Shown: one piece after another, positions 22,430-33,968 of the stretch
How positions within the stretch are numbered: the first letter of the stretch is position 1
Layout: each line of letters starts with the position of its first letter
From: Prauserella salsuginis
Lineage (GTDB): Bacteria; Actinomycetota; Actinomycetes; Mycobacteriales; Pseudonocardiaceae
Length of the DNA: 64,000 nt
Assembly (NCBI RefSeq): GCF_024648885.1
Contig: NZ_JANBBF010000008.1
Span: forward strand, 992,001-1,056,000
Direction: 5' to 3'
Translations under genes and position numbers: made by a program
The notes under the pieces: generated by a model
The model's database searches: none
Seen by the model: the letters and a program-made list of their open reading frames with translations, nothing else
What the model was told of the DNA's origin: nothing

Positions 22430-23491
22430 TCAGAACTCGACGGGTGCAGGCTCGGCCGCGGCCTCCTCGGCGTCGACCTTGGCACCGACCCCGAGCTTCT
22501 CCAGGATCTTCTTCTCGATCTCGTTGGCGACGTCCGGGTTGTCCTTGAGGAACCGCCGCGAGTTCTCCTTGCCCTGGCCGAGCTGGTCACCCTCGTACGT
22601 GTACCAGGCACCGGACTTGCGCAGGATGCCCTGATCGACGCCCATGTCGATCAGCGAGCCCTCACGGGAGATACCGACGCCGTAGAGGATGTCGAACTCG
22701 GCCTGCTTGAACGGCGGGGCGACCTTGTTCTTCACGACCTTCACGCGGGTGCGGTTGCCGACCGGCTCGCCACCGTCCTTGAGCGTCTCGATCCGCCGCA
22801 CGTCGAGCCGGACCGACGCGTAGAACTTCAGCGCCTTACCACCCGTGGTGGTCTCCGGCGAGCCGAACATCACGCCGACCTTCTCGCGCAGCTGGTTGAT
22901 GAAGATCGCGCTGGTGCCGGAGTTGTGCAGCGCACCGGTGATCTTCCGCAGCGCCTGGCTCATCAACCGCGCCTGCAGGCCGACGTGGGAATCACCCATC
23001 TCGCCCTCGATCTCCGCACGCGGCACGAGGGCGGCAACGGAGTCGATGACCACGATGTCGAGCGCACCCGACCGGATCAGCATGTCGGCGATCTCGAGCG
23101 CCTGCTCACCGGTGTCGGGCTGCGACACCAGCAGCGCGTCGGTGTCGACACCGAGGACCTTGGCGTACTCCGGGTCGAGCGCGTGCTCGGCGTCGATGAA
23201 GGCGGCGATACCGCCGTTCTTCTGTGCGTTCGCCACGGCGTGCAGTGCCACGGTGGTCTTACCGGACGACTCGGGGCCGTACACCTCGATGACCCGGCCG
23301 CGCGGCAGGCCGCCGATACCCAGCGCGATGTCGAGCGCGATGGCCCCGGTCGGGACGACCTCGACCGGCGGACGGGTGTCCTCGCCCAGTCGCATCACCG
23401 AGCCCTTGCCGAACTGCTTGTCGATCTGGGCCAGCGCCAGGTCGAGCGCCTTGCCCTTGTCCGGTGCACCCTTGTCCGATGCTGCTGCCAT
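22430..23491 (-). CDS. recA: Recombinase RecA
   Basis: A 353-residue recombinase that coats single-stranded DNA, pairs homologues and triggers LexA cleavage. P-loop GPESSGKT is at 72-79; the loop-2 region [19 protein letters not shown] and the family signature ALKFYASVR are intact. There is no intein, unlike M. tuberculosis. The ATG at 23491 follows AGGTGGG and matches the family start (MAAASDKG); the open frame runs 44 codons further upstream, but those codons are a tandem repeat. An SOS box and -10 element lie about 240 bp upstream. Confidence 0.98.
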
Positions 23492-23516
23492 GGAACCCAC
23501 CTCATTGGCCTTCGCG

Positions 23517-23576
23517 GTTGCTGTATCCGAAGTTGCTGTATCCGAAGTTGCGGTGTCCGGATCTGCTGTATCCGGG
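23517..23576. repeat. 15-bp tandem array in the recA leader
   Basis: Four units of GTTGCTGTATCCGAA type, two identical and two with three to five changes. They end 25 bp before the recA start codon. Read in the recA frame they would encode repeats of Asp-Thr-Ala-Thr-Ser. Confidence 0.9.
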
Positions 23577-23719
23577 TCGTGCTCGTGCGCCGGCACCGAG
23601 TCGGTGCACGCATGCCGGGTCACGCGTGCCGGTCGCCGAGGGCCGACACTACGGGCGGGGTCCGACAGTCGGCGCGAGTCACGCTGAATCTGTGGACAGC
23701 CAACCCCGATGTGGACAAC

Positions 23720-23741
23720 ATCCTAGAGAACATCTGTTCGA
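23720..23741 (-). promoter_or_regulatory. recA promoter with LexA-binding SOS box
   Basis: The box GAACATCTGTTCGA (23728-23741) fits the actinobacterial LexA site (CGAACNNNNGTTCG) with one arm base changed. Directly downstream on the minus strand is TAGGAT (23725-23720), a good -10. LexA bound here would block the promoter until DNA damage. Confidence 0.85.
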
Positions 23742-30899: not shown

Positions 30900-31850
30900 T
30901 CAGTACCGGGGTACGAGGTCGATCACGGTGCCGTCCGGATCGAGAAGCCGTCCCGCTCCGCGGCGGGTCGCGCCGAGCAGGCACAACCGGTCCGCTTCCG
31001 CGGCGAACTCATCCGGTGCGTCCGACGCGGACCGGCTTGTCCGCGCGGCCGACGCTCCCGGGGCTCCTGTGGCCGGGGCTCCTGCGGTCGGGGCTCCTCT
31101 GGTCGGTGCTTCGGTGGCCGGTGCTTCGGTGGTCGGAGCAGCAGAGGCTCCGGGCGTTTCCGGGGTTTCGGGCATCGGTCCGGGCCTCTCCGTCCCCGTT
31201 GCCGTCGCCGTGGATCCACGGCCGCTCGCCGACACGGCCAGTTCGAGCCGGCAGCGAGGAGTCACCGGCGGGCACGGGTCGGCCGACAGCAGTTCCAGCC
31301 AGGGACCCCTGCCTTCGGGAGCACGCAGGCTGACGAGCTCGGGGTCGGTCCGCACGGTCGGCCACCACGTGGCACCGGACCAGAACTCGGCCAGCCGGTG
31401 GGGGTCGGGCGATTCGATCACCACCGCGGCGAGTGCGCCGGTGGCGGTGTACTCGCCGCGTGGTTCGAGGACACAGAACTCGTTTCCCGCCGGATCCGCC
31501 AGCACATACCAAGGCGCCGGAACAGGGCCCGCGTACTGCCCGATGTCGATGTGTACGGCACCGAGTCGTATCGCTCTGTCCACAATGGCTTGTTGCGTAC
31601 CGCGGCCGGTTCCGCCGTCACCGTCGGAGGCGAGATCGAGGTGGATCCGATTCTTGGCGGACTTTTCCGCCGTGGCACCAACGATGTGCACCGTGGGGCC
31701 GTCCGGGAGCCGGACCCGCAGCCGGCCGCCGTCGTGGCGGCCGGCGTCATGACCGTCACCGACGAGTTCGCCGCCCAGCAAGGCGGCCCAGAACTCCGCA
31801 ACCTCCCGTGGCCGTTCGGCTTCGAACACCACTCCGGGCATCCCGTTCAC
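30900..31850 (-). CDS. VOC (glyoxalase/bleomycin resistance) superfamily protein with low-complexity insertion
   Basis: A 316-residue protein. The GTG at 31850 has GGAGG 6 nt upstream (31857-31861). Two VOC-like modules are visible: FEAERPREVAEFWAALLGGE with WYVLADPAGNEFCVLEP, and VVIESPDPHRLAEFWSGATWW. The second module is broken by about 80 residues of Ala/Pro/Thr/Gly repeats before it ends LLDPDGTVIDLVPRY. VOC proteins use a metal to rearrange or bind small molecules; the substrate is unknown. It lies 48 bp after the mycothiol-type gene and may be the third gene of a HEPN-led operon. Confidence 0.8.
   Translation of the reverse strand: MNGMPGVVFEAERPREVAEFWAALLGGELVGDGHDAGRHDGGRLRVRLPDGPTVHIVGATAEKSAKNRIHLDLASDGDGGTGRGTQQAIVDRAIRLGAVHIDIGQYAGPVPAPWYVLADPAGNEFCVLEPRGEYTATGALAAVVIESPDPHRLAEFWSGATWWPTVRTDPELVSLRAPEGRGPWLELLSADPCPPVTPRCRLELAVSASGRGSTATATGTERPGPMPETPETPGASAAPTTEAPATEAPTRGAPTAGAPATGAPGASAARTSRSASDAPDEFAAEADRLCLLGATRRGAGRLLDPDGTVIDLVPRY
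31060..31149. repeat. 15-bp tandem array in the VOC gene
   Basis: Six 15-bp units, four of GGGGCTCCTGCGGTC or GGTGCTTCGGTGGTC type and two more diverged, in frame, giving EAPAT/RGAPT-like pentapeptides on the minus strand. Confidence 0.85.
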
Positions 31851-31898
31851 CACACACCTCCGTCGTCCCGGCGACATCTGCGACACGGCGCGGCCATG

Positions 31899-32669
31899 TC
31901 ATCGCGTCGCCAACCGCATGAGCGCCAACAGCTGCCCGGCCGCGTCGTCGTCGCCGGCCACGTCGACGGCGCCGGGCCGGTTCCGGCCCCACAACCACAG
32001 ATAGACCGCCTCCGGCTCGCCCGACACCACGGCGGCGGCACGCCGTGCCTCGGGCTCCCCGCATCGGCGCACGGCCGTCTCGTCCGGGCCCGCGGACACG
32101 AGCCAGCCGTACCCGCCCGTGCACACGCCGACCTCGCCCGCTCGCGTGCCCCGGAGCCCGAGTCGTGGCAATCGGTGGCCGAACCACAGTAGGAGAGCCT
32201 CGTCGACACCGTCGAGTGCCACGTCGGCCGCGACCCCGGACCACGTCGTGCCTGCGACGCGTTCGACGTCCACCCGGTGGACGGTGGTGTCGTGCGTCAT
32301 GCGCCGCCGCCAGAACCCGTACGTCCGGTCCTGCGGCCACCACGTCGCCGCGGGTTCGCCCGGCTCGTGGAAGTCCAGGATCTCGCGCAGATCCGCGTAC
32401 CCCTGCCGAACGTAACTCTCCTCGCTCTGCCCCGGTGCGGGATCGCGCTGCCATTCTCGCGGCCGCTCGCCGTCGATCAGCCACGCCTGCGCCACGCGGT
32501 AGATGCTGCCGACGTGCCGGACGGTGTCGCCGACCGTCCATCCGGGACACGTTGGCACCGGCGTCTCGGGTGCAACGCCGCGTGAGGCCTCGATCAGCAA
32601 CGTGACCTCGTCGCCGAACGCCTCGGCGAGCCGCCGATGATCGATCACCGGGCCACCGCTCGTCACCAT
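31899..32669 (-). CDS. Maleylpyruvate isomerase-family mycothiol-dependent enzyme
   Basis: A 256-residue protein of the DinB-like MDMPI family. The N-terminal four-helix bundle shows PTCPGWTVGDTVRHVGSIYR, the conserved CPGW motif and the first metal-ligand His, and later MTHDTTVHRVDVE, which carries the second ligand region. The C-terminal half is a SCP2-like domain ending LALMRLATR. Such enzymes use mycothiol, the actinobacterial thiol, to isomerise or conjugate reactive compounds. The ATG at 32669 overlaps the stop of the HEPN gene by one base (TGATG), so it is translated with it. Confidence 0.88.
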   Translation of the reverse strand: MVTSGGPVIDHRRLAEAFGDEVTLLIEASRGVAPETPVPTCPGWTVGDTVRHVGSIYRVAQAWLIDGERPREWQRDPAPGQSEESYVRQGYADLREILDFHEPGEPAATWWPQDRTYGFWRRRMTHDTTVHRVDVERVAGTTWSGVAADVALDGVDEALLLWFGHRLPRLGLRGTRAGEVGVCTGGYGWLVSAGPDETAVRRCGEPEARRAAAVVSGEPEAVYLWLWGRNRPGAVDVAGDDDAAGQLLALMRLATR

Positions 32670-33199
32670 CACCGTCTCCGCGACCGCCGCCGCGGAAACG
32701 GCACCGGGGCATCACACTGCGAAGGCGTTTCCCGTCCACCGGATGCCGTCTGCCCGCGCACGACCACATCGGCGATGGCGAGAAACTCGCCCGCCCGCTG
32801 CAGCAGTTCGTGCGCGGACTCCTCGTCCGCGCCGCGGTACGCACCCGACCGGACGGCCGAGTACCGCGCCGAGTACCCCGCGAAGTACGCCGCCCAGCCC
32901 GCCAGTTCCGGAGCTGCCGACTCCAGCAACGACCAGGTGCTCTGCGGCTTGGCCCTGCCCCGGTGCGGCCTGCCGCGCGCGGTCAGTACCGCCGCCGCGG
33001 CACGCAGCGCCGACAGATAGGCACCCGTGAACCTCTCCACCACGTCCGACTCCCCACGCGCCGCCTGGATGCCGCGACGCGCCTGGGCCAACAGCGGAGC
33101 CGCCGCGGGCGCGGCGGGCGGCGCCTCCGCGAACGGCAGCGCGGGCTGCGTGACCCGCCTACGCACCGACGGATCCTGCGGCGTCATGGCTACCGACAT
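32669..33199 (-). CDS. SAV_6107-type HEPN domain protein
   Basis: A 176-residue protein, starting at the ATG of MSVAMTPQDPSVRRR. An Ala/Pro-rich N-terminus is followed by a helical HEPN-like domain: LAQARRGIQAARGESDVVERFTGAYLSALRAAAAVL, a linker, and SARYSAVRSGAYRGADEESAHELLQRAGEFLAIADVVV. Many HEPN proteins are ribonucleases using an R-x4-6-H motif; here R-x7-H is the closest match, so enzymatic activity is uncertain. The gene is coupled to the mycothiol-type enzyme and has an SOS box 138 bp upstream. I match it to SAV_6107-like proteins by length and Tyr-rich C-terminal helix, from memory. Confidence 0.7.
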   Translation of the reverse strand: MSVAMTPQDPSVRRRVTQPALPFAEAPPAAPAAAPLLAQARRGIQAARGESDVVERFTGAYLSALRAAAAVLTARGRPHRGRAKPQSTWSLLESAAPELAGWAAYFAGYSARYSAVRSGAYRGADEESAHELLQRAGEFLAIADVVVRGQTASGGRETPSQCDAPVPFPRRRSRRR

Positions 33200-33336
33200 G
33201 GCCGCCCCCTTCCCAGTCCGGCCGCTCTCGGAACTCCCGCTCCAGCAACTCCGGCCCTGGGGACTCCCGGTCGAGCGGCGTCCGGCACGGGACGTTTCCC
33301 CGTCCACCTGCCGGACTCACCAGGGATTCCCGTTGC

Positions 33337-33351
33337 CGAACATCTGTTCGA
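33337..33351 (-). promoter_or_regulatory. Second SOS box, upstream of the HEPN gene
   Basis: CGAACATCTGTTCGA has perfect inverted arms (CGAAC, GTTCG) and the same core and orientation as the recA box. A -10-like TACCGT lies just upstream of it on the minus strand. The nearest minus-strand gene is the HEPN gene; the YbaK gene starts 96 bp away on the other side. Confidence 0.8.
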
Positions 33352-33446
33352 CACCATCACGGTAGCGCGCCACCGGCTCCCCGACAAGCGCCGACCGGGA
33401 GCGATCTGCGTCGCAGTCCGCACGGCGGACGTGATCTCATGAAGTC

Positions 33447-33968
33447 ATGAGCACCCTCGACCATCCATCGGTCGCGAAGGTCGCGGCCGCGCTCTCGGAA
33501 GCCGATCAGGACGCCGCTGCGCAGGGAATTCGTCTCCTCCCCGAGGACGCCCGCACCGCCGAGCTGGCCGCCGCGGCACTGGGCATCGAGGTCGGCGCGA
33601 TCGCCAACAGCCTGGTGTTCCGGGCCACGCTGCCCGACGGCACCGACCGCGCACTACTCGCGCTGACGTCCGGGGCGCACCGGGCGAACACGACGACGCT
33701 CGCCGAGCTCATCGACGCGGACACGGTCGGCAGGGCCGATCCGGAGTTCGTCAAGACCTCGACGGGACAGGCGATCGGCGGCGTCGCCCCGGTGGGCCAT
33801 CCGCAGCGCATCCTCACGCTCGTCGACACCGCGCTGGCCTCCTACGACGTCGTGTGGGCCGCCGCAGGACACCCGAAATCGGTCTATCCCACCACGTTCG
33901 ACGACCTGCTGGCCGCGACCGGCGGCACCGCGGCGGACGTCGCCACCGAGCCGGGACAGCGGCGATGA
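33447..33968 (+). CDS. YbaK/EbsC-family aminoacyl-tRNA deacylase
   Basis: A 173-residue protein of the Cys-tRNA(Pro)/ProX-type editing family. It shows LPEDARTAELAAAALGIEVGAIANSLVFR, the conserved Lys loop (KTSTGQAIGG), and VAPVGHPQ plus AAAGHPKSVYPTTF. It hydrolyses wrongly charged tRNA in trans. The start at 33447 has no striking ribosome site, but the family N-terminus begins close by. Its stop overlaps the next gene by 4 bp (ATGA). Confidence 0.9.
   Translation: MSTLDHPSVAKVAAALSEADQDAAAQGIRLLPEDARTAELAAAALGIEVGAIANSLVFRATLPDGTDRALLALTSGAHRANTTTLAELIDADTVGRADPEFVKTSTGQAIGGVAPVGHPQRILTLVDTALASYDVVWAAAGHPKSVYPTTFDDLLAATGGTAADVATEPGQRR

Follow-up and report, generated by a model that had tools for sequence, protein, structure and literature searches.

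Does the LexA-like box that precedes an HEPN gene of Prauserella salsuginis mark a damage-inducible operon, and, if it does, what might such an operon contribute to the cell? The window analyzed here is a stretch of 64,000 nucleotides from this genome. It contains the box CGAACATCTGTTCGA at 33337-33351, precisely where a sequence-only reading of the same DNA had placed it, and a single other match with no more than two mismatches, namely AGAACATCTGTTCGA at 23727, the similar site upstream of recA to which that reading had likewise pointed. The predicted LexA operator with its CGAAC-N4-GTTCG core (33337..33350, no strand assigned) is proposed from the sequence and its conservation, and is situated at the predicted transcription start around 33352. 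Two or more matches to the box pattern with up to two mismatches were encountered in none of 100 shuffles of the window, and CGAAC-N4-GTTCG, which occurs once in the 64 kb, was found at least once in 7 of 100 shuffles. Across the whole 5.64 Mb genome the exact box pattern is present 20 times, against 2 occurrences of a reversed control. Since 11 of the 15 sites examined out of these 20 fall inside an open reading frame (by rough gene calls), an exact box alone is no proof; taken by itself, the box at 33337 is improbable only mildly, and it is conservation that is decisive.

The gene that follows the box encodes a HEPN_SAV_6107 protein of 176 aa on the minus strand (32669..33199; PF18726, 97.6 bits against a cut-off of 27.2). 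Its start is most likely the ATG at 33199, which is supported by the Shine-Dalgarno-like GGGAAGGGGG and by agreement among aligned members of the genus; a GTG at 33307 was considered and rejected in favor of this ATG, as it falls within the leader hairpin described below. The distance from the box to the start codon is consequently about 138 bp and not 30 bp. A TGATG overlap couples the HEPN gene to a DinB-fold mycothiol-dependent enzyme (MDMPI; 31899..32669, minus strand), which is recognized by PF11716 and PF07398 (MDMPI_N 64.6 bits, cut-off 24.2; MDMPI_C 30.1 bits) and by TIGR03083, the mycothiol-dependent enzymes of the maleylpyruvate isomerase family (57.3 bits, cut-off 50). The two genes very probably form one operon. 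The probable third gene, a VOC/Glyoxalase_6 member (30900..31886, minus strand; PF18029, 100.8 bits), has an uncertain start and appears to be a local addition; no NCBIfam model matched the HEPN or VOC protein of the window at E 0.01. The gene order HEPN-MDMPI-VOC given by the sequence-only reading thus stands with respect to the overlap, whereas the 48-bp gap that it reported between MDMPI and VOC hinges on the VOC start chosen. On the other side of the box a divergent YbaK (aminoacyl-tRNA editing) gene begins at 33447, so that the box lies between YbaK and HEPN. The recA gene (22667-23741) is situated about 10 kb from HEPN (32669-33350) in the window, and in 12 other genomes of the family, compared by eye, the two are found on the same contig at distances of about 10 to 43 kb.

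Conservation of the box was assessed at increasing phylogenetic depth. Among 60 relatives the PF18726 domain is present in 51, with one match per genome in all 51. Of these 51 genomes (that of the window included), 45 have an exact box in the 650 bp preceding the domain and 49 have one with no more than one mismatch; extending the search to 850 bp raises these counts to 47 and 51, respectively. As a benchmark, 30 sampled recA loci searched over 650 bp gave an exact box in 23 and, with one mismatch allowed, a box in 29, the one miss being a cut locus. In the class as a whole, PF18726 was detected in 142 of 196 Actinomycetes genomes. Of 53 loci from 39 families, 46 have an exact box within 1 kb upstream of HEPN and 52 have a box with no more than one mismatch, G146 being the exception, and 36 of the 39 families are represented by at least one locus with an exact box. 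The background, taken from 736 kb elsewhere in the class loci, contained 3 exact boxes and 68 with at most one mismatch, corresponding to expectations of 0.004 and about 0.09 per kb. A further 62 named loci (55 from Nocardia, 3 from Rhodococcoides and 4 others) all possess a box with at most one mismatch, only 6 of them exact, most of the HEPN boxes of the Nocardia set having one mismatch. By this comparison, SAV_6107-type HEPN genes throughout the class have retained a LexA-type box upstream. What had been a single "possible" box would thereby become the mark of a class-wide SOS gene, with an operator about as well conserved as that of recA.

A few phyletic peculiarities of the HEPN genes may be recorded here. 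All 11 listed genomes of one genus (g37) are without HEPN. In Nocardia grenadensis a single contig (NZ_BDCJ01000010.1) carries two HEPN loci (L210 and L211) separated by about 196 kb, which show equal identity to the query and represent a duplication or an assembly effect. A contig from a viral collection (L067, IMGVR_UViG_2923649072_000003) encodes a relative of the HEPN protein with 47% identity to the one query used.

The surroundings of the box are those expected of a promoter. On the HEPN strand the order is TTGTCG-N17-TACCGT-N8-box upstream of the HEPN gene: the predicted -35 element TTGTCG (33382..33387, minus strand), recognized from the sequence and similar across the genus, lies 17 bp from the predicted -10 element TACCGT (33359..33364, minus strand), which in turn is 8 bp before the box. 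A TAnnnT element 5-14 nt upstream of the box is seen at 63 of 86 HEPN boxes of the class (mode 9), 60 of the 63 being at 8-11 nt, compared with 6 of 1720 random places in the same loci; both elements together, with TTG[ACT] at a spacing of 15-20 nt, accompany 57 of the 86 boxes and 1 of 1720 background places. This geometry over 86 boxes implies that the box covers the expected start site, the classical position for a repressor, and comparison thus suggests that it overlaps the predicted start of a sigma-A-type promoter reading into the HEPN gene. An alternative is that the box serves YbaK and not HEPN, which its location between the divergent genes, about 100 bp from the YbaK start, would allow. 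As the adjoining promoter elements are oriented towards HEPN, and a divergent YbaK on the other strand upstream is found in only 20 of the 31 loci of the window's family, the box staying with HEPN elsewhere in the class, we regard this as extremely unlikely. LexA control of the HEPN locus, in contrast, is supported with high confidence by these comparisons: the orthologues were checked for boxless cases, which the sequence-only reading had held would speak against its proposal, and the box was found ahead of them.

The nature of the HEPN protein bears on what such control might achieve. The sequence-only reading had suggested an RNA-cutting toxin, which by analogy with the SOS-induced toxins of other bacteria would be released on damage. 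Members of the HEPN superfamily are often RNases, as stated in the available part of PMC3710099, and two features of the present family are consistent with this idea: an [RK]-x4-[HY] motif in the early part of the domain is present in 80 of 86 rows of the alignment, with the strict form R-x4-H in 52, and there is a weak match to the PADLOC model PDC-M05B (E 0.0064). The placement of this motif nevertheless argues against a catalytic role. The protein shows a weak profile match to AF0298 (2hsb) over the whole chain (E 0.048), and by our own reading of that weak alignment the canonical Rx4-6H site would fall around residue 113, and not in the first part of the domain. At the place so aligned, which depends on the weak profile match, an arginine is found in 76 of 86 rows and a histidine 5-7 residues later in only 1, and the protein of the window has a tyrosine where the catalytic histidine would be expected. 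Some Rx4-6H motif anywhere in the 75 residues after W89 occurs in 10 of 86 rows, at scattered places, and W89, P97 and F139 are themselves invariant in all 86 sequences. The conserved R-x4-[H/Y] near the start of the domain may therefore serve another function. In the accessible portion of PMC3710099 (Anantharaman et al. 2013) the same Pfam family is treated as the HEPN-M (SAV_6107) family of Actinobacteria, and its catalytic motif is tabulated as "No", that is, not conserved; the corresponding entry for an operon or SOS link is "-", unlike the box-linked loci described here. The one-per-genome occurrence of the domain in all 51 relatives with it, and the lack of any antitoxin or nucleotidyltransferase family among the seven neighboring proteins scanned in the window, likewise do not favor a toxin, and this interpretation is considered improbable. 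As PMC3710099, in the part available, suggests that HEPN domains without the conserved charged and polar residues are non-catalytic binders or adaptors, the missing Rx4-6H favors a non-catalytic binding or adaptor role.

The genes that accompany HEPN offer some indication of the process that it might serve. Downstream of HEPN on the same strand, a Y-family polymerase is found in 32 of the 53 class loci and a DnaE-type polymerase in 25, all of them among the 47 loci outside the window's family (f1, taken from its gene content as Pseudonocardiaceae). These counts come from tblastn, by position and strand only, and are independent of the gene calls in the relatives, for which a simple GC3 caller was used that is rough and missed some HEPN genes. 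The DnaE matches separate into a high class of 1430-2234 bits (6 loci), DnaE2-like by query, and a low class of 348-464 bits (18 loci) representing a more distant DnaE, with one additional match of 102 bits about 8 kb off. Further partners in the class are a SAM methyltransferase and DUF3040 or DUF6504; a DUF6504-like small protein stands between the box and HEPN at six loci (L112, L113, L127, L130, L137 and L140), and the loci of three families (f27, f29 and f32) have none of the partners sought. Polymerases of the same kinds make up the PolY-DnaE2 and ImuA-ImuB-DnaE2 mutasome operons (PMC6511836, as far as available), with the difference that in the window's genome HEPN is not beside any polymerase. 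That genome has three Y-family genes, all apart from HEPN. The first, at a distance of about 10 kb from the mraW RNA, has a methyltransferase as its neighbor and lacks a convincing box; the second has no box with at most one mismatch in the stretch examined; the third is followed by the start of a DnaE-like open reading frame, and about 1.3 kb before its domain there are two boxes with one mismatch each. The methyltransferase-Pol IV pair without HEPN (L287, G000:C1:500597-501037) is possibly a place that HEPN has left. Given this separation and the 21 of 53 loci with no Y-family polymerase within the stretch taken (6 of the 21 being from the window's family), the link with polymerases is a genomic association and not a mechanism. 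That HEPN acts as a polymerase accessory is accordingly a reasoned guess, with about even chances; were it true, an unstudied family which often precedes translesion (mutation-making) polymerases in Actinomycetes would prove to be an unrecognized piece of damage-induced mutagenesis.

In the window's own family the partner is a different one. An MDMPI gene lies downstream of HEPN on the same strand in 30 of 31 loci, which bears out the pairing of HEPN with a DinB-fold enzyme that the sequence-only reading had drawn from a single genome, whereas VOC is found in only 9 of the 31. The HEPN-isomerase-VOC module envisaged there hence appears too narrow a description of what across the class looks like an SOS gene with translesion polymerases frequently in its vicinity. 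Thiol transferases are known from the DinB superfamily, and it is conceivable that the box mainly regulates the mycothiol enzyme, in an SOS detoxification operon with HEPN as a passenger. Besides the near-constant presence of MDMPI in the family, four genomes (G005, G027, G028 and G035) lack PF18726 and retain the exact box, the promoter, the leader hairpin and MDMPI. Diverged HEPN genes were ruled out in all four, the domain being deleted or a mere remnant; G028 retains a truncated N-terminal piece. These losses imply that the leader is tied to the transcription unit and that HEPN is dispensable. Outside the family, however, MDMPI is near HEPN at 0 of 47 loci and the box is still with HEPN, and the passenger interpretation is on balance rather unlikely. 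Irrespective of this, a DinB-fold enzyme under a LexA box would provide a possible concrete link between the SOS response and mycothiol-based detoxification.

One member of the family has probably been encountered before in expression data. In the available part of PMC5055667, Corynebacterium glutamicum cg2381 is a LexA-regulon gene, a call that goes back to Jochmann et al. 2009, with the function given as unknown and the annotation "conserved hypothetical protein"; it is up on ciprofloxacin with an M value of 3.86, the same as that of recA, and mraZ is cg2378 (M -1.13). In PMC4046766, again as available in part, cg2380 adjoins cg2378 on the same strand and an mraW motif is placed at cg2377. 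PF18726 signals are present in C. glutamicum, and the order HEPN-DUF3040-mraZ is seen in 56 of the 62 named loci; judged only from this correspondence with cg2381-cg2380-mraZ, cg2381 is the probable orthologue of HEPN, which it would resemble in its position before mraZ, its LexA-regulon membership and its induction by ciprofloxacin. To the extent that PMC5055667 is available, cg2381 is thus already known as a LexA-regulon gene. The word HEPN has 0 occurrences in the available parts of PMC5055667 and PMC6511836, and 0 in the available main text of PMC9380542, a LexA ChIP-seq study of S. venezuelae. Among the matches listed for searches on HEPN, DnaE2, ImuB and translesion HEPN is absent, the name "SAV_6107 family HEPN" retrieved no literature, and searches joining HEPN, LexA, SOS and actinobacteria found toxin-antitoxin systems only.

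Between the box and the HEPN start codon our analysis uncovered a further conserved element, which the sequence-only reading had missed. The motif GGGGAA[GA][AC] is present upstream of HEPN in 37 of 51 relatives (29 of 31 in the window's family and 8 of 20 outside it), and in nearly all of these it makes up the loop of a GC-rich hairpin (imperfect in L062), the consensus loop being GGGGAAG. In an alignment of 21 family leaders 95.2% of the pairs of the 16-bp stem are standard ones, and at 13 of the 16 both partners have changed; the covariation score of 0.509 compares with 0.194 +/- 0.021 in shuffles (0 of 500 reaching it) and at most 0.118 in slid alignments. These statistics are flattered by selection, as the alignment comprises 21 of the 29 motif-bearing leaders of the family, eight (G000, which is the window's own, G002, G003, G004, G006, G009, G030 and G034) having been dropped for shifted, bulged or irregular stems, and the window's genus being absent from it on account of its bulged stems; another leader alignment took 31 of the 37 motif-bearing leaders. 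The stem contains 24 G-U as against 4 A-C cells in the family and 11 as against 2 in other families, an excess which indicates that pairing is maintained at the RNA level, in the HEPN strand.

Searches with covariance models are consistent with the association of this element with HEPN. In the 60 genomes the family model gave 34 matches at E<=0.1, of which 26 precede HEPN, 4 precede MDMPI in genomes that have lost HEPN, and 4 are elsewhere; at E<=0.001 the 29 matches are distributed as 24, 4 and 1, respectively. Match positions were compared by eye with those of PF18726, and since 21 of the searched genomes trained the model, 9 of the 30 well-placed matches are independent. A second model, built from 13 leaders of other families and applied to the 196 class genomes, gave 25 matches at E 0.1. 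Sixteen of these are well placed, being no more than about 1 kb upstream of a PF18726 domain in the same orientation, and 9 are not; at E 0.02 or below all 13 matches are well placed, including 6 that had no part in training. As only 24 of the 196 genomes have a match, the leader in recognizable form is much rarer than the box. Of the 53 class loci, 21 have the hairpin, with 2 such hairpins elsewhere on the HEPN strand. In 19 of 37 leaders, as against 23 of 1825 background windows, the next 100 nt contain a second hairpin, whose loop CUUCC[CU]C is the complement of the first. The stem of this second hairpin covaries at 3 of 6 pairs in one alignment and 2 of 3 in another; the two-loop alignments (A5, with 11 of 12, and A6, with 13 of 14 of the leaders bearing both loops) required both loops, and the invariance of the kissing pairs in them is hence an effect of selection.

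The copy in the window (33280..33316, minus strand) has the loop GGGGAAAC and no recognizable second hairpin. In a 351-base search model R1 scored it at 16.9 bits on the HEPN strand, against 11 on the other strand and 63.4 bits for the best relative with the leader model; its fold has a z of -2.56, it has no model match in its own genome at E 0.1, and it is degenerate and possibly decayed. Rfam 15 has no family at gathering score in the window, none at gathering level in 12 HEPN loci and none at E 0.1 in 18 more. In the relatives, the covariation and pairing pattern make it very probable that the leader is a real conserved RNA; that it is both functional and undescribed, the latter as judged by Rfam 15, is probable, and its role would most likely lie in the translation or stability of the mRNA. 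At one additional place (L104, G032:C38:172436-172474) a one-mismatch LexA-like box stands 25 nt before a leader hairpin, ahead of an apparently unrelated open reading frame, as if box and leader could move as a unit.

Taken together, these observations are likely, as a whole, to be best explained by a LexA-repressed SOS operon that combines a non-catalytic HEPN accessory protein, detoxification by MDMPI and tuning by the leader. DNA damage would lead RecA filaments to cleave LexA and so switch on the operon, with a transcript that would often begin with the conserved hairpin and frequently with two hairpins of complementary loops. The non-catalytic HEPN protein would assist damage tolerance, and most likely the translesion polymerases, as a small helical accessory or as a partner that binds nucleic acids; the DinB-fold enzyme would add a mycothiol-based removal of electrophilic DNA-damaging compounds, and the leader would tune the translation or stability of the induced mRNA, thus placing an RNA layer on an SOS operon.

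The leader shows a certain likeness to the mraW RNA (RF01746), which also forms a long GC-rich hairpin and has a C-rich loop complementary to that of the HEPN leader. The mraW RNA is, however, a separate element, found in 57 of 60 genomes (41 over cut-off) away from the HEPN places. The possibility that the leader is this known RNA was rejected: its best match among 12 loci, in leader L020 (G016), is on the opposite strand and reaches 38.8 bits against a cut-off of 50, and 18 further HEPN loci gave 0 matches at E 0.1 and the window none. The sole overlap between mraW and HEPN places is one of the two G016 matches, which corresponds to the opposite strand of the leader. One could further envisage a new riboregulator, in which the leader hairpins kiss through GGGGAAG/CUUCCCC or the GGGGAAG loop instead binds CUUCCCC of the mraW RNA in trans, thereby adjusting division genes on damage. 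The loop CUUCCCC is indeed present in the mraW RNAs of 14 of 20 regions (L267-L286; the hairpin finder met another hairpin in 6), but co-variation of the loops as a test of such pairing gave nothing in its favor, the leader loop in the window's genome having changed as above with the mraW loop there still being ACCUUCCCCG, and the one member of the HEPN-less genus g37 that was searched (G042) carrying an mraW RNA. We consider this riboregulator very improbable, and a trans link between leader and mraW RNA is speculation. In C. diphtheriae the mraW motif is reported to lie upstream of the mraW transcription start (PMC5784534).
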